Source of the DNA: Spirochaetes bacterium ADurb.BinA120
GTDB taxonomy: Bacteria > Spirochaetota > UBA4802 > UBA5368
Reading direction: 5' to 3'
DNA length: 34,132 nt
Assembly: GCA_002069125.1 (NCBI GenBank)
Contig: MVZN01000028.1
Span: 1 to 34,132, forward strand
The position numbers were made by a program, and so were the translations under genes. Numbering within the stretch: the first letter of the stretch is position 1; every line of letters begins with the position of its first letter. The notes under the pieces are model-generated. The model saw only the letters and a program-made list of their open reading frames with translations. It was not told the origin of the DNA and made no database searches. Shown here one piece after another: positions 252 to 30,754 of this stretch.

Positions 252-359
252 GGTGAACAGCCGATAACCCTGCCGAAAACCAAAAATTTAGATGCGTCGG
301 CCCTGCGATCAAGCCGGCGATTTGTTGACATGGCTTCCGGCATGGCCTACCATTACGGC

Positions 360-3300
360 ATGAAAGCAATGTGGCATGTGGCGGTAATCGGATCGTTTTT
401 TTTGACGGCAGCGGCTCGCGCCGTGGCGCAAGACTGGGTGACTGTCCCTTTTGCCGGCCCCGACCGTACCCATTTGACGTACTTTGCCTCTGCCCCCGTA
501 GACGGCGAGGTTAAACTCGAAGCTCAAGATCCGGGCGGCGGGACGAGACAGCTTGATTTTGGGTCAGGCACGATTCAAGGTACGCTCCTTGACACAGATT
601 TGGCGGTTGGCAACATCCGTTACGCGGTCATGAAACGGGGACCCGATCCGGCGACAGGCGAGATGGGCGCGTGGTACCAGAGTTTCATCACCGAAGCGGT
701 GGCCGTTGACGGCGTCTCTGCCGGCGGCAGGTTGCTCTTCGACGAGGAACTGGAGAACGTGCGAATCCGCGGTGTTTTTGTACCGGCTGATTTCACCTTG
801 ACGCTGTCGGGCTCGCTGACGGCACCGACGAACGACACCACGGCGATCGAACTTTACGGCTCTTTGGTCCTGGACGGAGCCATCACCTTGCTGCCGCACG
901 TGCGCGGAGGCGAGCTGGACGACATCCCATTCCGCGTCGACCTCGCCAAGCCGACCAGCCTCGCCGGCGTGTCCGGAGGCGTCTTTCTCCTGAATGCGGC
1001 GGGATCGTCGCTGAATGCCTGCTCCGGCATCCGCATCGTCCCCTCCTTCGGCGGAACGCTGATCTCGGTCACCAACGCCGTCGTCGAGCTGCGCGAGCTG
1101 CCGGAGGGAACGACCTTGGAGATCTCGGACAGCGACTGCTCGTCCGGGGTCACGGCCGGCGGCGGCTACCTCTACGACCGCCAGTGCATCGACGGCACCC
1201 TGATTTTGGACGGTGTCGTCTGGAACGGCCCCTTCGAGGCGCGAGGGGCGGCCGATGTCAGTGCGACGGATTGCGATTTCCGCGGCGATGTGTCAGTCCA
1301 AAACGATGAAGGATCGACGGACGATGTCGTCTTCTCCGCCACCCGGTGCCGCTTCACCTCCTACGGGACCAGCCGTCCCGGCAGCGGATCGGTCAGGCTG
1401 AGCCAGTGCCTCTTCTCCGCGCAGGCCGGCGCATACGGCGGCGCGGCCGAGTTCGAAGATTGCGAGTTCGGCGGGGGCTTCCGATTGCAGAACCGCAGCG
1501 CGACAGTCATCACCCGCAGCCGCTTTCTGACGGCGCTGATCTTCGCCAACGACTACCCCGAATACGATACCGACATCCCGCGCTGGCACGAAGCCAACGA
1601 CCCCAGCCCGACCATCCAAGGCAATGCCTTCATGGACGATGTCGCCCTGCGCTATGAACACCTGACCGGGGTCGCCTCGCCTTCGGTTCCGATCACCATC
1701 GGCGCCAACTTCTACGGCAGCCCGGCTGGCTGGTACAACGACGTCTCCGGCCTGGAACGCGGCTTTTTACCCGACTCCTACCGCGCCCGTGTCCTCGGCA
1801 ACTCAAGTGCGGCCCCCGTCTTCGCCATCGCCACGCCGCTGACCCAGTCGCCCCTCGCCGCCGTGCGCCAGGACACGCGCGTCTTCCCCCGCTTCTGGCT
1901 GAACGGACACATTGCCGGCCAGAACACCATCAACCACCAGAACGGCACGCTCGACAACACGGCCAGCCACATTCTGATCAAGGGCCGCGAGACGCTGCTC
2001 TCCGTCGACCTCTCCTGCACGGAAGAGGCCCTCTCCGGCGTGCGCGTCTACGCCGAATGGGACGGCAAGCAGATCGAAGCCGAGCGCGCCGTATCCCGGG
2101 TGCGACGCGACCCCGCGCAATTTCCGCGTAACGACATCCGCTACGCGCGCAGCACGTTCTCTTTCATCCTGCCGCCCGTCCAGGATGCCACGATGCCCGT
2201 CGTCGTGCGGCTCGACGCCTCGGGTGTCGCCGGCTTCGATCCGGACGCCTATCCCGAGGAGGACGCCGCCCTGCTCGCCGGCACGGTGACTTTCAAGGAC
2301 CCGCCGTCGCGGCCTTTGCGCATCTGGGTGTTTCCGGTCGAGGTCTCCGGCCTCACCGGCTCCTGGGGCACCGGCAGCGCGGCGGCCACCGTCGAAACGC
2401 TCGGACGGGAAATCCCCAACCAGCTTGCCATACCGGCGGACAAGCTGCGCGTTGTCCAGAAACCCGTGCTCTCCGTCTGGTCGCCCACCACGTTCATCAC
2501 CTCGCTCGGCCTGCTCAACCGCGTTTCGGCCCAGCTCGCCTTCGGCCGCTGGGTCGTGAGCGGACTCGACCAGGCCCCCGACTTCATCGTGGCCGTCATG
2601 CCGCACGGCCTCATCACCGACGGCGCCGAGGGCGCCTCCTTCGTCGGCCGTCGACGCGTGCTCTTCGTCGACGAGCTGCGTGCCCGCGCCGCGCTGCACG
2701 AATTGGGGCACGGCGTCGGGCTCTGCACCTCGAAGGAGCAATACGACGCCTATCCGCCCGAGGGGCTCCCTGTCGAGCGGGCCACGGTTTTCCGAAACGC
2801 AGAGGCGGGCAGCGTCAACCGCATCCAGCACCAGCCGAGTTCCAGCAGCACCTGGTTTGACAGCAACATGATCGTTTACGACACGATGGGCGCGGGCGAC
2901 CCCTCCGCACCGCTCGTCGTGACCGTCGCCGCCTTCGACGACTGGGTGCGCGAGAACCTCGACGTTCCCGCGCCCACTGGAGTTCAGACCCTTCAGGCAG
3001 TCGACCTGTCCGACCCCTCCCCACTCGACATTCCCCCTGGCATGCGGCGGATTCTCCTTTCCGGAGCCACGGACTATTACTACGCTTTCAAGCCGAACAC
3101 TCTTCAGATCTTCGATGTCACGCGTCTGGATGGCGAGGCCCGACCGCCCAACAGCGGCAGCGTCTACACCTTCGCCGCCTACGACGCCGACGGCACCCAG
3201 ATCTTCTCGCAGGGATTCGTTCCGGCCTCCGAGGATCCCGAATGGGTCGGCACCTTCGATGTGCCGGCAGCCACCGCAGCCTGCCGGGTGATCAAAAGTT

Positions 3301-3767
3301 CGGACAGCTCGACCGCCATCGCCGTGACCGCGTCCGGCCTGCAGTCCGTCGCGCTGCTGGCGCCTGCCGCCTCCGGCACGCTCGGCGACACGCTTGCCGC
3401 TCACTGGAGCGTGGCGTTCACGAACACGCCCGCACCCGGCCAGATGCGCCACCTGCTCTTCTGGCGCACCGATCCCGCGCAGCCCTGGACGCTGCTGGCC
3501 GGCCCCACCGTTGCCACCAACGTGCTGACCCTGACCACGGCTCTGCCCGAAACGTCGACGCTCGCGCTGCGGCTCGTGACCTCCGATGGCGTGGAATCGG
3601 TGGAGCACATCGTGGACGGCATCACGGTCACGCCCCGCGCCCCGCGCGTCACGATCCGCGCGCCGCTCGGCGGCGCCGTCTCGCAAAGCAACGCCGTCTG
3701 GCGCTTGAGCGCTGAGGTCACCGAATTCCCGCCGCAAACGGCGGGCGGCATATATAGCCCCCAATGA
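360..3767 (+). CDS. Secreted beta-helix protein with metalloprotease-like domain, 3' end chimeric
   Basis: Predicted exported protein. ATG at 360 gives a classic signal peptide (MKAMWHVAVIG, hydrophobic core, Ala-rich end before QDW); ATGs at 330 and 342 are possible but would put an odd polar leader in front, and none has a clear ribosome site. Residues ~100-480 are rich in short hydrophobic strands with Gly/Asn/Asp turns, as in right-handed parallel beta-helices. Around residue 780 there is HELGHGVGLCT, a zincin HExxH motif with the metzincin Gly, then YDTMGAG about 70 residues on, a possible Met-turn; the third metzincin ligand (His/Asp) is Thr here. The C-terminal ~200 residues look like beta-sandwich repeats. 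The final residues after SAEVTE are read from the antisense of a CoA-transferase gene, so the natural C-terminus is missing. Substrate unknown. Confidence 0.6.
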   Translation: MKAMWHVAVIGSFFLTAAARAVAQDWVTVPFAGPDRTHLTYFASAPVDGEVKLEAQDPGGGTRQLDFGSGTIQGTLLDTDLAVGNIRYAVMKRGPDPATGEMGAWYQSFITEAVAVDGVSAGGRLLFDEELENVRIRGVFVPADFTLTLSGSLTAPTNDTTAIELYGSLVLDGAITLLPHVRGGELDDIPFRVDLAKPTSLAGVSGGVFLLNAAGSSLNACSGIRIVPSFGGTLISVTNAVVELRELPEGTTLEISDSDCSSGVTAGGGYLYDRQCIDGTLILDGVVWNGPFEARGAADVSATDCDFRGDVSVQNDEGSTDDVVFSATRCRFTSYGTSRPGSGSVRLSQCLFSAQAGAYGGAAEFEDCEFGGGFRLQNRSATVITRSRFLTALIFANDYPEYDTDIPRWHEANDPSPTIQGNAFMDDVALRYEHLTGVASPSVPITIGANFYGSPAGWYNDVSGLERGFLPDSYRARVLGNSSAAPVFAIATPLTQSPLAAVRQDTRVFPRFWLNGHIAGQNTINHQNGTLDNTASHILIKGRETLLSVDLSCTEEALSGVRVYAEWDGKQIEAERAVSRVRRDPAQFPRNDIRYARSTFSFILPPVQDATMPVVVRLDASGVAGFDPDAYPEEDAALLAGTVTFKDPPSRPLRIWVFPVEVSGLTGSWGTGSAAATVETLGREIPNQLAIPADKLRVVQKPVLSVWSPTTFITSLGLLNRVSAQLAFGRWVVSGLDQAPDFIVAVMPHGLITDGAEGASFVGRRRVLFVDELRARAALHELGHGVGLCTSKEQYDAYPPEGLPVERATVFRNAEAGSVNRIQHQPSSSSTWFDSNMIVYDTMGAGDPSAPLVVTVAAFDDWVRENLDVPAPTGVQTLQAVDLSDPSPLDIPPGMRRILLSGATDYYYAFKPNTLQIFDVTRLDGEARPPNSGSVYTFAAYDADGTQIFSQGFVPASEDPEWVGTFDVPAATAACRVIKSSDSSTAIAVTASGLQSVALLAPAASGTLGDTLAAHWSVAFTNTPAPGQMRHLLFWRTDPAQPWTLLAGPTVATNVLTLTTALPETSTLALRLVTSDGVESVEHIVDGITVTPRAPRVTIRAPLGGAVSQSNAVWRLSAEVTEFPPQTAGGIYSPQ

Positions 3768-22305: not shown

Positions 22306-25107
22306 TCAGCGCTTCACGGCCGCCATGGCGCGCTCGACGAGCATCTCGAAGATGTTTTTCTGGGTGAAAGAAAAGGAGGTGAACAGGGTAAATGCCTTGG
22401 TCACTACTTTGGAAAGGTCCACTTCGGTAACGAAATACGAATAGCCCCCATGCCGCTTTCGGAGCAGCGCAAGCTCTCCCGCAACCTGGAACAGATTGGC
22501 CCTGGTGAATTCGTTGGTATAGTTCCCGTTTGGCAGGCTGAAACTGTAGCCTATCTCGCCATCCTGGCGGGGATGCAAAAACAGGCGCATGGGAATTAGA
22601 TGGCTTCGCGCCTCGATTACCCCCCGATCAAGCTCCGGGTTCATTTCTGTCACGGTGCAGTTGTTACGCACGTCCTGCTCCAACCTGTAGACCTCCACCC
22701 TCTTCAGGCGCTCCGCCAGCTTCGACGATGGGTTCCGTGCGGCGGCGCTTTTGGCGGCGTTCTCGGCAAACAGGCACAGGCGCGCGAGATATTCGCTGTA
22801 GGAATCGAGCCCCTTTCGGAAAAAATGCACCGCCCCGCGCTCGTCGACGACAAAGAAATGGCAGTATTTGGCTGTCTTCCGGCAGTATATACGTATGGCG
22901 CCGTCATCGTCCTTTGCGGTTATGGCGCGCAGGTAATTGAACTCTGGAATCATGGGGTCGAAGCCGTAGCGGGCCAGCGCGCCTGTATTCATGCCCAGGC
23001 CCATGAGCATTCTGTCCTCCGACTCATACGGTGTCGCGGTAACCGTTTCGGCAGCGGCTGTTTTCCTGTTGGCGAAAACGAACAGGGTGTTCCCGAGCGT
23101 GGTGACGTAACGCTTCCGGGCCGGCGTACGGTCCTCTACGAACAGCTCGTGCATCCCTTTGAGGAGCGAGACGATGCGGTCGAAATCGCGGCTTGAGCCA
23201 TACGGCTGCGAGGACGAAAGCCGGAGCGCCCTCTCGAAGTCGTGGCGGGTTACGAGTGCGAGAGGTAGCGCCGAAACGGCGATCTTCGCGATATCGACCT
23301 CGCTCTTGAAGGTCTCGAATCTCGTTTCGCCCCAGCTGTTATGGTGGAGGAAGACGATGTCGTCTATCTTCTTGGAGTATTTTGAATATGGGTTGATGAT
23401 GATATAGCTGATAATGGGAAAGGGGTCGCGAACGAAATAACTGTTCTGGATCTGGAGCCGCTTGAAGGCGAAATGCACGGAGAGCTCGGAGATGAGTTCG
23501 CGTATATAGTTGGGGTCCACCGCGTGGATGCCCGACTGGATCTCGAGGCGGGTGTAATCCTTCTGGAAGATGCGGTTCATCGCGATCCAGGCGATAACGC
23601 CTATCAGTGTTTCGTCTTTGTGGAATATCACCTTGGCCGGATAATTTTTTACGATTATCCGCTTCGAGAGAAGGTAGAATTCCCTGCCGTCACGGTCGCG
23701 TACGAACTCTATGGTAAGCAGTTTTTCCTGCGGGTAATTTTTAAAGCTGAGCGAATTGTCGATTTTATCCGCCGAAACCGAGAAGTGCGATTGGATCTTT
23801 CGAGTTATGCCTTTCAGATCGTCGCCCGACAGCCTGTGCGCGATCTTGTTAGTTTCGATTGCGTTTAAAATATCGCGGTATCCGCGCAGAACATACTTCT
23901 TGGTGTCGCTCATCAGGCGGTTGACCGAGTCGATGTCCTGGTTTTCGAACTCGTCCATCTGCCTTATCGTGGACTCCGACCAGTTCCATTTACTGGTGTA
24001 GGCCTGCATGATCCGGGCCTTCTCCGAAAGCTCGATCTTTTCGTCGCCGTTCAGGAACCGCGACAGGCGCGGGTCCACTTTAAGATAGAAGCTTATTGTA
24101 AGAAGCTCGGTGGCGTTCGCGTCAACGATAATAGAGTTGTAGTAGTTGTACACCTGGTTGAACATGATGACGTAGGAGTCGATGTTCTGTACGGCGAGCT
24201 TACCGTCGTGCACGTTCTTTTTTATGATGTTGCTTATAAACGGGTTGCGCCCCGTGCTGTGCAGGTAGCGCTCGAGGAGGCCGAGCTTGATGATCGACTT
24301 GAATGGATTTCCCAGTGATTTCAACAACTGGAACAGCGCCGCGACGAGGAAATCCTCGCGCGGTATGGTGTAGAGATTTCCCAGGTCAACGATCTCGCCC
24401 GCGAAGCGCGAGTCGCGGGCGATTTCGAGCCACTCGAGATATGCCGCGTCATCGGACCCGGCGGGCACCATCCACCAGAACGGCGTTTTTCCGCTCACCA
24501 CGATGGAGCTTCGGAAAAACTCCTCCTTAAGCAGCTCGCCGAGCGAGGTGCCGGAGAAGTTTTCCTCGCTGTCGTCATCGAAAATATTGTTTCGGACCTT
24601 GTTGATGTCGTTCAAAAAAAAATGGACCTCTATGCCGAACCTTTCCTCTATCCAGTTCTCTATGGCCCGGCATTTTCCGCGGAACAGGCGCAGCGATTCG
24701 GGGTCCATACCCCCTTCGTCCGCGCAAACCCAGTAGTCGAAATCGGAATTGGAGGTGTATGCTATCGTGCCGCCGCTGCCCATCAGCGCGAACATCTGGA
24801 TGAAGGGAGTCTCCGGCCTTTGCACATTGATGGATACCGATGGAAAATGCGCTTGTAAAAAGGCCGCGCCGCGCTCACCCAGATGAAATCCGTGCATCCC
24901 CTGAGGCATCCTGTCGCTCTGAACAAAGCCCGGAAGACCGTAAAGGTTATAAGCGAGCAGGAAGGGGATAGCCTCGAAGAGATCGATGGTCTTCTGATCG
25001 GTTATGGACGAATACAGGCTCGCCGTCTTGATATTGTTGTAGCGGTGGAACTTCTCCCGGTTAGCCTCTATGGTACTTATTATCCGTGCTTTTTTATCGT
25101 TTTCCAT
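22306..25107 (-). CDS. cyaA: Class I-type adenylate cyclase
   Basis: About 933 aa from ATG 25107 (GGTGA five bases upstream; an in-frame GTG at 25116 is weaker). It converts ATP to cyclic AMP. The N-terminal region matches the enterobacterial CyaA class: a nucleotidyltransferase-fold core with LMGSGGTIAYTSNSDFDYWV (residues ~109-127; GS and two Asp that bind metal), then KCRAIENWIEERFGIEVHFF, MVPAG, and ALFQLLKSLGNPFKSIIKLG, which parallel E. coli CyaA in order and spacing. The C-terminal ~450 residues resemble the E. coli regulatory half only weakly. No membrane segment. It is preceded on its strand by an outer-membrane protein gene, with ~100 bases between them. No CRP-type regulator is in the window. 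Confidence 0.88.
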   Translation of the reverse strand: MENDKKARIISTIEANREKFHRYNNIKTASLYSSITDQKTIDLFEAIPFLLAYNLYGLPGFVQSDRMPQGMHGFHLGERGAAFLQAHFPSVSINVQRPETPFIQMFALMGSGGTIAYTSNSDFDYWVCADEGGMDPESLRLFRGKCRAIENWIEERFGIEVHFFLNDINKVRNNIFDDDSEENFSGTSLGELLKEEFFRSSIVVSGKTPFWWMVPAGSDDAAYLEWLEIARDSRFAGEIVDLGNLYTIPREDFLVAALFQLLKSLGNPFKSIIKLGLLERYLHSTGRNPFISNIIKKNVHDGKLAVQNIDSYVIMFNQVYNYYNSIIVDANATELLTISFYLKVDPRLSRFLNGDEKIELSEKARIMQAYTSKWNWSESTIRQMDEFENQDIDSVNRLMSDTKKYVLRGYRDILNAIETNKIAHRLSGDDLKGITRKIQSHFSVSADKIDNSLSFKNYPQEKLLTIEFVRDRDGREFYLLSKRIIVKNYPAKVIFHKDETLIGVIAWIAMNRIFQKDYTRLEIQSGIHAVDPNYIRELISELSVHFAFKRLQIQNSYFVRDPFPIISYIIINPYSKYSKKIDDIVFLHHNSWGETRFETFKSEVDIAKIAVSALPLALVTRHDFERALRLSSSQPYGSSRDFDRIVSLLKGMHELFVEDRTPARKRYVTTLGNTLFVFANRKTAAAETVTATPYESEDRMLMGLGMNTGALARYGFDPMIPEFNYLRAITAKDDDGAIRIYCRKTAKYCHFFVVDERGAVHFFRKGLDSYSEYLARLCLFAENAAKSAAARNPSSKLAERLKRVEVYRLEQDVRNNCTVTEMNPELDRGVIEARSHLIPMRLFLHPRQDGEIGYSFSLPNGNYTNEFTRANLFQVAGELALLRKRHGGYSYFVTEVDLSKVVTKAFTLFTSFSFTQKNIFEMLVERAMAAVKR

Positions 25108-25208
25108 GGCGATCACCGCTTGAAGATCGCTGGGCCGGAAAGCCCCGTGACATCAATTGAGACCGAAGGGGTGAAAATGTCAAGGCTTTGCGTCCAAGCG
25201 CCGGTCCG

Positions 25209-26583: not shown

Positions 26584-26643
26584 ATGCTCTTGACGTCGCC
26601 CTCCTCCACAGGTATGATAGCCCATAAACCCGCGGTCAACACA

Positions 26644-29157
26644 ATGAAATCGAAAATAAAAGCCCGGACCATTCATGCGGCACTCGCCGCGAGCGCGCTC
26701 GCTCTCATCACCGCCTGCGCAACACTGTACGGCGTCTATTTCAAGACGCCCGACATATCCAGTGGCTCCATCTCCCTGGAGGGGGCGCGTGGCGAGATAG
26801 TCATACGGCGCGACTCTCTGGGGGTTCCTTTCATAGAGGCCGGCGATGAGGATGACCTCTTCTTCGGCGCGGGATTCGCCGCGGCGACCGACCGTATGTG
26901 GCAGATGGAGGTGATGAGGGCGGCGGGCCGCGGACGGCTAAGCGAATTCATAGGGCCCGAATCGCTCCCGCTCGACCGCTTCCTGCGCGCGCTTGGCATT
27001 GGCGACGCCGTCCGGGGGGCTATTCCCGCGCTCGATGCGCGCTCCAAGCGGATACTCGAACGCTATTCTATGGGCGTTAACGCCTTCATGCGCACTCAAA
27101 AACTTCCGGCCGAATTCTCCCTGACGGGCCATTCCCCCGGCCCCTGGACGCCCGAGGACTCGCTCTATGTCTTTGCCATGCTGAACCTCGGGATCTCTTA
27201 CAACTTCTGCGAGGAGCTCAACTTCCTTCCACTTGCGCACCGCGTGGGGCCCGACAGGGCCGCCTGGCTCACCCCGGTATACCCCGACGAGGGCCTGCCC
27301 TTCGACGAGGCCGCAAAGCTCGCCGAACTGCCGCATCCCATACTCGATGCGAAACGGAGCTTTACGCGCTCCGGCGGGTCGCTCTTTGCGTCTCTTTTTC
27401 CCGGTCCGCCGCCCGCCTCGAACAACTGGGCCATCTCCGGACGGCGCACGGCAAGCGGACGAAGCATTGTGGCGAACGATACGCACCTGGTAATTTCCAT
27501 CCCCAATTCGTGGATGATGATGCACCTGCGCTGCCCCGGATATGACGTGGCCGGCGTGGCCGTACCGGGGATACCCATCGTTACGCTGGGCTTCAACGGA
27601 CATGTGGCCTGGGGGGCAACGATGGTGATGGCGGACAGCCAGGACATCTTTGTCGAAAAGACGCGGGAGGCGGGGAGCGGCCGTGAGTACCTGTACCGCG
27701 GCCGCTGGCTCCCGGTCGTCGAGCGAAGGGAACTCATCCATATAAAGGGTAAAAAACCGGTCGAGGTCGTCCTGGGCCGCACGCAACACGGAGTGCTGAT
27801 CGACCGGGCGCTGGCCGATCTCCCGTTCGAAAGGGAGTCGCCGATTCAACCGATGAGGCTCCATGAGGGCTACGCCCTGGCCCTTCGCTGGCCTATCGAG
27901 GACGGCGCCGAGACCTTTCGCGGCTTCGACCTCCTGGGACGCGCGCGGAGCGCCGCCCAGGCGCGAGAGGCCATGCGCCATATAAAGAGCACTTATCTCA
28001 ACATCGTATACGGCGACGCCGACACCATCGCCTGGCAGGTAACCGGCAAATATCCGGTACGGAAAAAGGGAGGCGGCCAGCTTCCCTCTCCGGGATGGAA
28101 CGGAGAGTACGACTGGACGGGCTGGCTGCCCTTCGAGCGGCACCCGTACGCCATTAACCCGGGGCGCGGATACGTCGCGACCGCCAACCATCGTACTGTG
28201 CCGCGCGGACATCCCGAGCGCCTGAGCGCCTCATGGTACGGCCCTGCGCGCGCCGCGCGTCTAACCGAACTACTCGAAGGAGAACGCGCGGCCACACGCG
28301 AGCATTCCCTCCGCATCCAGACTGACGTTTTCTCGCCGACCGCGCGCGCGCTCCAGGCCCTGCTTGTACCCGGAGGGCGGCTTGAGCAGGCGGTAGAAAG
28401 AGAGATAACCTCATGGAGCGACAGGCGCATGGCCGAGCGCGCCCGCGAGGCGCTCGTACTGCTCGATCCCTCCCGTTTCGACGCGGTGCTTTCCGCCGAT
28501 TCGGCGTCGGCGGCCGTCTATGGCCTGTTTTTGCACTGCTTCACTCGCAACACCTTTCTCGACGAGCTTGGGCCCGACGACGGCCCCGTCTGGCAGGCCT
28601 TTATCGACGCCAACATTAGCTCGTATTCCGCCATGGAGGACCATTTGCTCCACCGCGACGATTCGCCCTTCTTTGACGACTGCGCAAGCCCTCGAAAGGA
28701 GGACAAGGCCGCTATCGTCGCCCGGTCGCTCTCCGACGCCATTCTGCTTGCCGAGAAACGCCTGGGAAAAAACCGAAAGCGATGGCGATGGGGGGCTCTC
28801 CACACCTATGCCTGGCGCCACGACGCGGCCCGCAAGGCGCGCTTTCTTTCCCCGCTCCTCGACCGAGGTCCATTCCCGGCGCCCGGCGACACCTCCACCC
28901 TCAATGTGGCCGGAATGGCGCACGGGGAGGGCTTCGACGTACTCTGGATACCGGCCATGCGCATGGTGGTGGACTTCGGCCTCGACGAGCCCGCTATGCT
29001 CAACATGACCCCCGGGCAGTCGGGGGATCCTTCCAGCCCCCATTACGACGACATGATCGGCCATTTCCTGGGCGGGGAAAACCACCCTCTTCCATTCCGA
29101 AAGGATAACGTCGAGCGGCAGTACACGAGGGTGTTTGGCATCCGCCCCGCTCCATGA
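26644..29157 (+). CDS. Penicillin acylase-family Ntn hydrolase, lipoprotein
   Basis: 837 aa from ATG 26644, chosen because it begins a lipoprotein signal (MKSKIK, hydrophobic core, lipobox ITAC); the frame is open 20 codons upstream. The Pfam penicillin amidase layout is evident: alpha chain with LGVPFIEAGDEDDLFFGAGF and the DRMWQME helix; linker; then ASNNWAISG, where Ser259 would become the N-terminal nucleophile of the beta chain after autocleavage, followed by NDTHL and FNGHVAWG. Members hydrolyse amides such as penicillins, acyl-homoserine lactones and cyclic lipopeptides; the substrate here is unknown. The mature protein should be tethered to a membrane facing the periplasm. The stop is 4 bases from the stop of the converging CULT gene. 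Confidence 0.92.
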   Translation: MKSKIKARTIHAALAASALALITACATLYGVYFKTPDISSGSISLEGARGEIVIRRDSLGVPFIEAGDEDDLFFGAGFAAATDRMWQMEVMRAAGRGRLSEFIGPESLPLDRFLRALGIGDAVRGAIPALDARSKRILERYSMGVNAFMRTQKLPAEFSLTGHSPGPWTPEDSLYVFAMLNLGISYNFCEELNFLPLAHRVGPDRAAWLTPVYPDEGLPFDEAAKLAELPHPILDAKRSFTRSGGSLFASLFPGPPPASNNWAISGRRTASGRSIVANDTHLVISIPNSWMMMHLRCPGYDVAGVAVPGIPIVTLGFNGHVAWGATMVMADSQDIFVEKTREAGSGREYLYRGRWLPVVERRELIHIKGKKPVEVVLGRTQHGVLIDRALADLPFERESPIQPMRLHEGYALALRWPIEDGAETFRGFDLLGRARSAAQAREAMRHIKSTYLNIVYGDADTIAWQVTGKYPVRKKGGGQLPSPGWNGEYDWTGWLPFERHPYAINPGRGYVATANHRTVPRGHPERLSASWYGPARAARLTELLEGERAATREHSLRIQTDVFSPTARALQALLVPGGRLEQAVEREITSWSDRRMAERAREALVLLDPSRFDAVLSADSASAAVYGLFLHCFTRNTFLDELGPDDGPVWQAFIDANISSYSAMEDHLLHRDDSPFFDDCASPRKEDKAAIVARSLSDAILLAEKRLGKNRKRWRWGALHTYAWRHDAARKARFLSPLLDRGPFPAPGDTSTLNVAGMAHGEGFDVLWIPAMRMVVDFGLDEPAMLNMTPGQSGDPSSPHYDDMIGHFLGGENHPLPFRKDNVERQYTRVFGIRPAP

Positions 29158-29161
29158 GGGA

Positions 29162-29617
29162 TCAGAGGCCCTCGGCAAGATATTTCAGGATAAGGCCGAA
29201 AAAACCACCGGCCCCCGAATCGTAGCGCCATCCGAGCTGAACCGCACATCCCCCGCAATGGGCATAGCGCCACGAATAACCCCCGAACCAGGCATGTGCG
29301 CGGGTGGGATCGCCCGAGACAAAACATCCCTCAGCCCGCGAAAAACAGCATATACGAAAAAGGGCGCCTTCCGGATTGAAGAACTCGTGCACGCTCGAGC
29401 CGTTCATCTCTATTATATCGTGCGGAGAGGCGATTACGCGGCCGCAGAATACGCAGACGAAGCGGCGGTCCGGCGACTCCTCCGCGCCGGGTTTGCCGTC
29501 GCCTCGGCTTTCTGGAAGGGCCGCTTCCGCGCCGGACCTCTTCGCACGGACGGGCGCTAACGGACCTAAAGGCCTCTTATCGCATGCAGGTCCCGTATGA
29601 AGTCCGAATCCGGTCAT
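29162..29617 (-). CDS. Stand-alone CULT-domain (cereblon-type) zinc protein
   Basis: 151 aa. Residues ~50-150 match the CULT domain of cereblon's thalidomide-binding region and the Magnetospirillum homologue MsCI4: zinc ligands Cys55, Cys58, Cys121, Cys124 in CVFCG and CGGC; the tryptophan cage Trp110, Trp116, Trp130 (AWFGGYSW, LGWRY), equivalent to human Trp380/386/400; and FNPEG, FRICCFS, and FFGLI near the end. Residues 1-50 are a disordered Pro/Arg/Ala-rich leader. There is no Lon N-domain and no DDB1-binding part. GGGGAGG lies six bases before the ATG. Bacterial members bind uridine-like and thalidomide-like ligands in vitro; their natural role is unknown. It stands alone, tail-to-tail with the acylase gene. 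Confidence 0.9.
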   Translation of the reverse strand: MTGFGLHTGPACDKRPLGPLAPVRAKRSGAEAALPESRGDGKPGAEESPDRRFVCVFCGRVIASPHDIIEMNGSSVHEFFNPEGALFRICCFSRAEGCFVSGDPTRAHAWFGGYSWRYAHCGGCAVQLGWRYDSGAGGFFGLILKYLAEGL

Positions 29618-29675: not shown

Positions 29676-29725
29676 AAAAACACGGGCCCGGGAACACTCG
29701 ATCCCCGGGCCCGGCGCTCTTTTTA
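29676..29725. terminator. Intrinsic terminator, usable in both directions
   Basis: CGGGCCCGGG (29683-29692) pairs exactly with CCCGGGCCCG (29704-29713) over an 11-base loop. On the minus strand the stem is followed within three bases by five T (29680-29676), suiting termination of the outer-membrane gene that ends at 29746. On the plus strand CTCTTTTT follows. Confidence 0.8.
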
Positions 29726-29745: not shown

Positions 29746-30639
29746 TCAATTCGTCTTCGGGGCCAAAAAATCGCTCGAGAACGAGAATCCCACCAGGAAG
29801 TAAGGCACCGCGCCCACCCTGTCCGGATGCTTGAAATACCATCCGAGTATCATGAGGAGCGAAGGCTTGTTAAAGCTGCCGTAATCGTCGGTGCTAAACG
29901 ACCACGCGAACAGAGGCCCTACGCGCATGTGCTCGAGGCCGTTGCCGGGCAGCACCGCCGAATAACGGACTCCGAGCGTAAGCCTTCCGTTCATGTAGAT
30001 CAGGTCGGTGTCGTTTCCCCATATCATCTTTTCGTACGGCACCAGCGTGTCGAGCGTGGCGTCATAAAAGTATTTGTCGTCGTCCTCGAGATCCAGTTTC
30101 CAGTACTCGAAGGCGAACTTTGAACGGGCCGCGATCCTGCCGACCTTCATCTGGACCATCGGCTCGGCAAACAGGTGATGGCCGCCGGTGGAGTAGGCGT
30201 CGTCCTCGGTGTCCTTTCGCGCGTCGTCCGAGAAGTTTGCCTTCGAATTCGGATAGGACTGCAGATATCCCATCGTTCCGAAATATTTGAGGTACTCATA
30301 CCCCAGGCGCAGATTGAATATCCCTATCGGCTGAAAATCGATAAGCGGTCCCACCTTGAGATACGCGGGATTTAGCTTGGTGGAAAGCCCCAGCGCAAAA
30401 AATGTGTCGCGGAAGAGCGGCGACGTGCTGTCCGCCAGCCTTCGGCTGTACATTAGGCGGTTCTGTGTCTCAAGCCCGAGCGGATTGTAGCGCGCGATGG
30501 TGAGCGAGGCCAGGTACAGCCTGTCCTTTGGCGGGACCTGGATTGCGGGGGCGGCCTCTTCCTGCGCCGCCACCGGGACCAGGCACAGGGCGACGAAGGC
30601 GAGCACGCACAACATGATGGCGAATTTTCTGAAACGCAT
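29746..30639 (-). CDS. Outer-membrane beta-barrel protein
   Basis: 297 aa from ATG 30639, chosen because GGAGG lies four bases upstream; the open frame extends 34 codons into the promoter region. Signal peptide MRFRKFAIMLCVLAFVAL, cleavage probably near VAAQ. The mature protein is rich in amphipathic strands with Tyr/Phe/Trp (FNLRLGYEYLKYFGTMGYLQ, SKFAFEYWKLDLEDDDKYF, HMRVGPLFAWSFSTDDYGSF, VPYFLVGFSFSSDF), consistent with a 10-14 strand barrel. It does not end in the canonical Phe; the last residues are LAPKTN. No recognised family. It has its own promoter-like region and a strong terminator, so it is probably monocistronic. Confidence 0.75.
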   Translation of the reverse strand: MRFRKFAIMLCVLAFVALCLVPVAAQEEAAPAIQVPPKDRLYLASLTIARYNPLGLETQNRLMYSRRLADSTSPLFRDTFFALGLSTKLNPAYLKVGPLIDFQPIGIFNLRLGYEYLKYFGTMGYLQSYPNSKANFSDDARKDTEDDAYSTGGHHLFAEPMVQMKVGRIAARSKFAFEYWKLDLEDDDKYFYDATLDTLVPYEKMIWGNDTDLIYMNGRLTLGVRYSAVLPGNGLEHMRVGPLFAWSFSTDDYGSFNKPSLLMILGWYFKHPDRVGAVPYFLVGFSFSSDFLAPKTN

Positions 30640-30719
30640 GGCACCTCCATTTTTGTAAGTGTCGATGCGCAATCGGAAAAAGCGCCGCTTCGTTCCGCAC
30701 GGCGCGGAAACGAATGCGG

Positions 30720-30754
30720 GGATCGGTCCGATCCGCACCACGCCTATTATTATA
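30720..30754 (-). promoter_or_regulatory. Promoter and palindrome upstream of the outer-membrane protein gene
   Basis: On the minus strand a perfect TATAAT (30754-30749) would start transcription near 30741. Immediately downstream GGATCGG-T-CCGATCC (30720-30734) is a perfect 7-base palindrome covering the early transcribed region. No convincing -35 is seen at 17 bases. It could be an operator that blocks initiation. The leader would be about 100 bases. Confidence 0.5.

Follow-up and report, generated by a model that had tools for sequence, protein, structure and literature searches.

What bacterial CULT proteins do by nature, and how the drug pocket of cereblon arose, is a long-standing question. 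Eukaryotic cereblon is a LON-CULT fusion, and for bacterial CULT proteins we found binding or degradation data in the literature only for drug, lactam and uridine-type ligands. The window, by which we mean the whole stretch of 34,132 nucleotides analysed here, carries on its reverse strand (29162-29617) an ATG-initiated gene for a protein of 151 amino acids, present in a single copy in the genome, which the original prediction described as a stand-alone CULT protein with an intact thalidomide pocket. What would such a protein bind in a bacterium, and with which partner would it work? Linkage at the level of the family makes the question of CULT function directly testable: a linkage to Lon proteases, an overlap with a PCMT gene and a motif in the N-terminal leader lead to a concrete proposal that can be tested, namely that bacteria have a reader of damaged C-termini.

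Identity and predicted fold of the CULT protein

A phmmer search against PDB chains matched residues 53-150 of the ORF product (29168-29461, reverse strand) to MsCI4, the cereblon isoform 4 of Magnetospirillum gryphiswaldense (MGR_0879), with E = 2e-22, and to the CULT domain of human cereblon with E ~1e-9. The nearest relatives of CULT are the Yippee/Mis18 proteins (PF03226), which share the beta-tent and have one zinc site (Lupas et al., PMC4287342). This family was the sole Pfam rival and reached 16.6 bits, below the cut-off of 26.6; set against the 2e-22 to a CULT structure, this led us to reject a Yippee/Mis18 placement. MsrB was rejected as well, as neither the Pfam and NCBIfam output nor the PDB sequence matches with E of up to 1 contained it, and the NCBIfam search of the ORF returned no matching model. 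A profile search against Yippee and MsrB had been chosen beforehand as the test that could overturn the original prediction, and the protein was firmly placed in neither family.

AlphaFold2 run on the CULT domain alone gave a best model of five with a pLDDT of 83.5 (the remaining four had 36-58), and Foldseek comparison of this model returned the beta-tent fold. The predicted domain superposed on MsCI4 at a TM of 0.88 to 6r0q and 0.87 to 4v2y, with 42-44% identity in the structural alignment. Complexes of MsCI4 with thalidomide derivatives or glutarimide compounds, deoxyuridine and lactams head the PDB fold matches, most of them at TM 0.81-0.89, and human CRBN ranks after these at TM ~0.85 and 24-26% identity. 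Pfam found no LON_substr_bdg match in the 151-aa ORF, which agrees with the earlier statement that the protein has no Lon part; unlike human cereblon, it is without a LON domain, a DDB1-binding region and a ubiquitin system. In summary, the predicted product is a genuine single-domain, stand-alone CULT protein whose family membership is firm by sequence and model, and it is a further member of an already known family, ordinary as a protein.

Zinc site and drug pocket

The residues named in the original prediction are all present: the two zinc motifs, C55-x2-C58 (29444-29455) and C121-x2-C124 (29246-29257), and the three cage tryptophans, Trp110 (29288-29290; human W380, MsCI4 W79, numbering as in PMC8900816), Trp116 (29270-29272; human W386) and Trp130 (29228-29230; human W400), all on the reverse strand. 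All seven are invariant in 55/55 homologues. The NPxG motif at the inserted hairpin is represented by N81, P82 and G84, and the tyrosine at the base of the cage is kept (Y132, corresponding to Y101 of MsCI4). The protein thus resembles MsCI4 in its single CULT domain, its zinc and tri-Trp residues and its cage-base Tyr, and differs from it at two residue positions and in belonging to another phylum. At the first, the query has Ala107 where MsCI4 (Glu76) and human cereblon (E377) carry a conserved Glu; at the second, it has His108, the residue found in human cereblon (H378), where MsCI4 has Phe77. With human cereblon it also shares the cage Trp residues and the zinc site. At position 127 the query has Gln, compared with His in 49 of the 55 aligned homologues.

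In MsCI4, glutarimides are held by backbone hydrogen bonds at Phe77 and Trp79 and by a third bond from Tyr101 at the cage base (PMC8900816), and the protein also binds uridine and deoxyuridine (PMC4287342, PMC4449219). Homologue alignment, phmmer and fold comparison all point to an intact drug pocket in the query, predicted to have the zinc site, tri-Trp cage and beta-tent of MsCI4 and cereblon, and so bear out what had been proposed for it.

Host and distribution

The genome assembly comprises 3.5 Mb in 216 contigs. A congener has, in its 16S gene, GGCGGCGCGTCTTAAACATG, a Leptospira/spirochaete signature, so that the host phylum is probably Spirochaetota. A CULT gene was present in 29 of the 59 sampled genomes of relatives, every one inside the order, and within the order about two thirds of those sampled were positive, while a sample of the phylum (n = 296) yielded only three further positives outside it. 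Among Desulfobacterota, the phylum of a Desulfofustis MAG, the gene was found in 30/297 and 39/395 genomes of two overlapping samples, or ~10%. The earlier remark that CULT proteins occur in "a few bacteria" hence understates their spread. A scan of genome contigs gave one match only, owing to the use of one protein as the query. The search for phage or plasmid carriage gave no match and no viral contig, and such carriage was rejected; together with the counts in order and phylum, this marks CULT as a chromosomal gene that is common, and no rarity, in the order. The alignment behind the CULT gene tree has too few columns for the tree to tell whether the gene passed from one phylum to the other. 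One congener copy (L041, G002:C101:629-829) contains two in-frame TGA codons, reflecting decay or poor assembly.

Neighbourhoods of the homologues

The survey of homologue neighbours proposed with the original prediction was run on 76 CULT loci, 60 of which were covered by all-against-all clustering of the neighbours. It showed Lon adjacency in relatives; the amidase gene adjoining the query was not shared beyond the genus. Most neighbourhoods differ between genera and are conserved only within them, and a universal operon partner was rejected, since the clustering of 60 loci gave synteny at the genus or family level only. Examples are an anti-sigma-like/sigma-like pair in one genus and hemC-cobA/hemD in Desulfofustis-like loci. 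In four Desulfobacterota loci (L002, L095, L099, L100), CULT follows a cobA/hemD-type fusion gene, with hemC ahead in three.

We singled out the association with Lon because cereblon itself is a LON-CULT fusion. In one genome of the query's own order (G037, L033), CULT lies directly upstream of a Lon gene with LON_substr_bdg and AAA domains, 140 bp away on the same strand. The canonical Lon at L033:822-3245 is split over two reading frames in the assembly, by sequencing error or decay. In five Desulfobacterota genomes of one order, the CULT locus contains a LonC-type protease, with the order CULT-LonC-BFN in L102, L104 and L129 (13 bp apart in L129) and LonC before CULT in L128 and L130; a sixth genome of that order (G614) has LonC elsewhere, away from CULT. 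The cluster of LonC, a bifunctional-nuclease-domain protein and CULT is conserved in all five loci, within which CULT shifts position. This retention of the linkage despite a changed gene order gives more weight to the Lon association. Adjacency to Lon thus amounts to 6/76 loci in two lineages, and linkage of a Lon-family protease to CULT is seen twice independently, in relatives and not at the query. Two independent adjacencies compare with 0.1-0.25 expected at the 3-5 Lon-type genes that each genome has, a difference of modest significance (Poisson P ~0.004-0.03). Degradation of unfolded protein by LonC requires no ATP (PMC3391209).

In another genome (G038, L016), the end of a PCMT gene overlaps the start of CULT. 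Human PCMT1 writes a C-terminal cyclic-imide tag, which is the cereblon degron (PMC11974815, PMC13001092). The PCMT family is multi-copy in nearly every genome of the order, and a single adjacency is therefore not significant (chance probability ~0.1 or more). Co-occurrence with PCMT was uninformative as evidence and was discarded, PCMT being above the cut-off in 57/59 genomes, most of which have several copies. Across families of the order (L173, L174, L175, L176, L178), a tig-clpP-clpX-lon cluster has a methyltransferase gene, a PtsI-like gene and PCMT nearby. The same tig-clpP-clpX-lon/PCMT synteny occurs in a CULT-negative genome (G016), and we rejected it as a CULT-specific feature. In the open-access papers that we consulted, neither the neighbourhoods of bacterial CULT genes nor the leader motif described below was mentioned.

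The N-terminal leader and its motif

Residues 1-53 (29459-29617, reverse strand) form a leader that has no signal-peptide character and is predicted to be cytoplasmic. The original prediction had described it as a disordered extension absent from the short Magnetospirillum form. The difference in length stands (52-54 residues, compared with ~22 ahead of the domain in the MsCI4 construct), whereas its standing as a special or featureless trait does not, as most homologues have a leader with a motif. Full-length AlphaFold2 from a two-row input gave a pLDDT of 38 with no confident structure anywhere, and is thus uninformative about the leader.

Across the family, the leaders vary in sequence, yet they carry a short hydrophobic-basic motif ~30 residues before the first zinc Cys (for example PLLFKRDG, HLFRLPSDR, RLFFRQPDP and FFFKPD); in many of them, an acidic stretch comes next. 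We scored it as [FL][KRQ] at 26-36 residues before the first Cys, a regular expression chosen after viewing the first two sets. In these, it occurred in 13/15 non-redundant leaders of the own order, compared with 2.8 in shuffles (p ~2e-4), and in 12 of 20 Desulfobacterota leaders, compared with 3.8 (p ~2e-4). In a later, untouched hold-out set, it was found in 5/8, compared with 1.8 in shuffles (p = 0.012). Unrestricted EM motif discovery was noisy, with no clear gain over shuffles at equal effort. The CULT proteins linked to LonC have short leaders without the motif.

In the query, the motif position (residues 20-29, 29531-29560, reverse strand) reads LAPVRAKRSG, as compared with PPLLAKRPGP and APLLAKQPGP in the congeners. 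As judged from sequence, the motif is conserved in the family and degenerate in the query. That its position is kept across two phyla suggests a partner. The zinc domain of ClpX favours LKxh peptides (PMC7226468), which the motif resembles, and this offers a lead from sequence likeness alone.

Proposed function and alternatives

The original prediction named no function; the neighbourhoods of the homologues now supply a candidate. We propose, with a probability of about 0.4, that the CULT protein recognises cyclic-imide damage at C-termini and passes the proteins concerned on to a protease. The group held in the cage would be the one known from eukaryotes: an aspartimide or glutarimide, as a cyclic imide at the C-terminus, arising from backbone cleavage or from a PCMT-type methyltransferase. 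Uracil compounds would bind the cage as mimics. With the damaged end captured, the CULT protein may work as a scaffold adaptor, delivering the damaged protein to a protease of the AAA+ or Lon type. The leader motif of most family members, carried on an acidic and presumably flexible linker, could serve as the docking arm, and in one Desulfobacterota lineage the leader would have been lost and the gene kept beside LonC instead.

Gene linkage and the leader motif are the basis of this adaptor role, which says what the protein may work like. The likeness is to SspB-type ClpXP scaffold adaptors and lies at the family level, in a ligand-binding domain, a linker and a short docking-type peptide (PMC7226468). 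Neither the sequence nor the fold searches returned a match to SspB, and in the CULT proteins the peptide is N-terminal and its docking putative. Against the adaptor reading stand the position of the query itself, away from Lon, ClpX and PCMT, the modest significance of the Lon linkage, the degenerate motif of the query, the post hoc choice of the regular expression, and Ala107 in place of a conserved Glu. More tentatively, the whole family may represent a ubiquitin-free bacterial C-degron path, in which PCMT or backbone damage writes, CULT reads, and Lon or LonC (or ClpXP through the leader motif) destroys. Cereblon would then descend from this reader by fusion to a LON domain; already under the adaptor reading, it would be what eukaryotes made of the same principle, a LON-CULT protein that works with a ubiquitin ligase where bacteria would use a protease. 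A bacterial reader of damaged C-termini, if true, would bear on the origin of cereblon and on possible targeted degradation in bacteria.

The protein could instead bind cyclic-imide or other C-terminal groups and protect or sequester these ends, or aid their repair together with PCMT, with no proteolysis involved. This fits the same pocket evidence (the 55/55 alignment and the fold matches), the PCMT overlap in L016 and a stand-alone domain without an effector part, but we consider it unlikely, as the conserved position of the leader motif in two phyla suggests a partner and the Lon linkage also speaks against it.

We likewise give a low probability to a pyrimidine sensor, whose cage would bind uracil or uridine and report or buffer the pyrimidine status. 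Binding of uridine and deoxyuridine by MsCI4 and the presence of 4v31 among the fold matches point this way, as do the carA gene, for the first pyrimidine/arginine step, two genes downstream of CULT in L017 and L025, and a Dus gene adjoining CULT in L098. However, the carA linkage concerns 2/76 loci only, both in one order, the reported effects of uridine on MsCI4 are weak (p = 4.9e-2 in the thermal shift), no CULT protein was seen fused to a regulator or DNA-binding domain, and a uracil ligand leaves the Lon linkage unexplained. The reader that delivers damaged proteins to a protease remains our preferred reading.

Genes adjoining CULT in the window

As originally described, the CULT gene lies tail-to-tail with a gene for an amidase-like lipoprotein, a penicillin-amidase family protein of 857 aa on the forward strand (26584-29157; PF01804, E = 2e-202) with a lipobox-like LITAC at its N-terminus. 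The two genes converge with their ends 4 bp apart. A functional link implied by this arrangement finds no support beyond the genus, as the amidase is a CULT neighbour only in the congeners G003 and G004, and a partnership was rejected. Acyl amides, rather than cyclic imides, are what the penicillin-amidase family is known for. Least probable, and very doubtful, is a role in catabolism or detoxification, possibly linked with this amidase, in which the CULT protein would bind small cyclic imides, lactams or hydantoins: the cage binds valerolactam too (5ohb) and the adjoining product is of an amidase family, but only the amidase looks exported, the CULT protein having no signal sequence, the pair is conserved in the genus only, and no catabolic gene cluster recurs among the clustered loci.

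Upstream on the same strand lies a gene for an exported protein of 331 aa (29746-30741), a neighbour only within the genus. Between it and CULT, a terminator-like hairpin on the reverse strand (29683-29713; 13 pairs, loop of 5, T-rich tail) suggests that CULT forms a transcription unit by itself; terminator-like sites occur at 1.1 per region in shuffles, and the hairpin is therefore not significant by count. Further away, 330-3767 (forward strand) encodes a protein of 1145 aa whose N-terminus is signal-like and for which Pfam gave no match. The gene at 22306-25116 (reverse strand) encodes a Class I adenylate cyclase (PF01295, 1e-47; N-terminal domain, 2e-43), an enzyme type associated mainly with gammaproteobacteria and here present in a probable spirochaete, and a homologue is found in the same neighbourhood of the congener G003.
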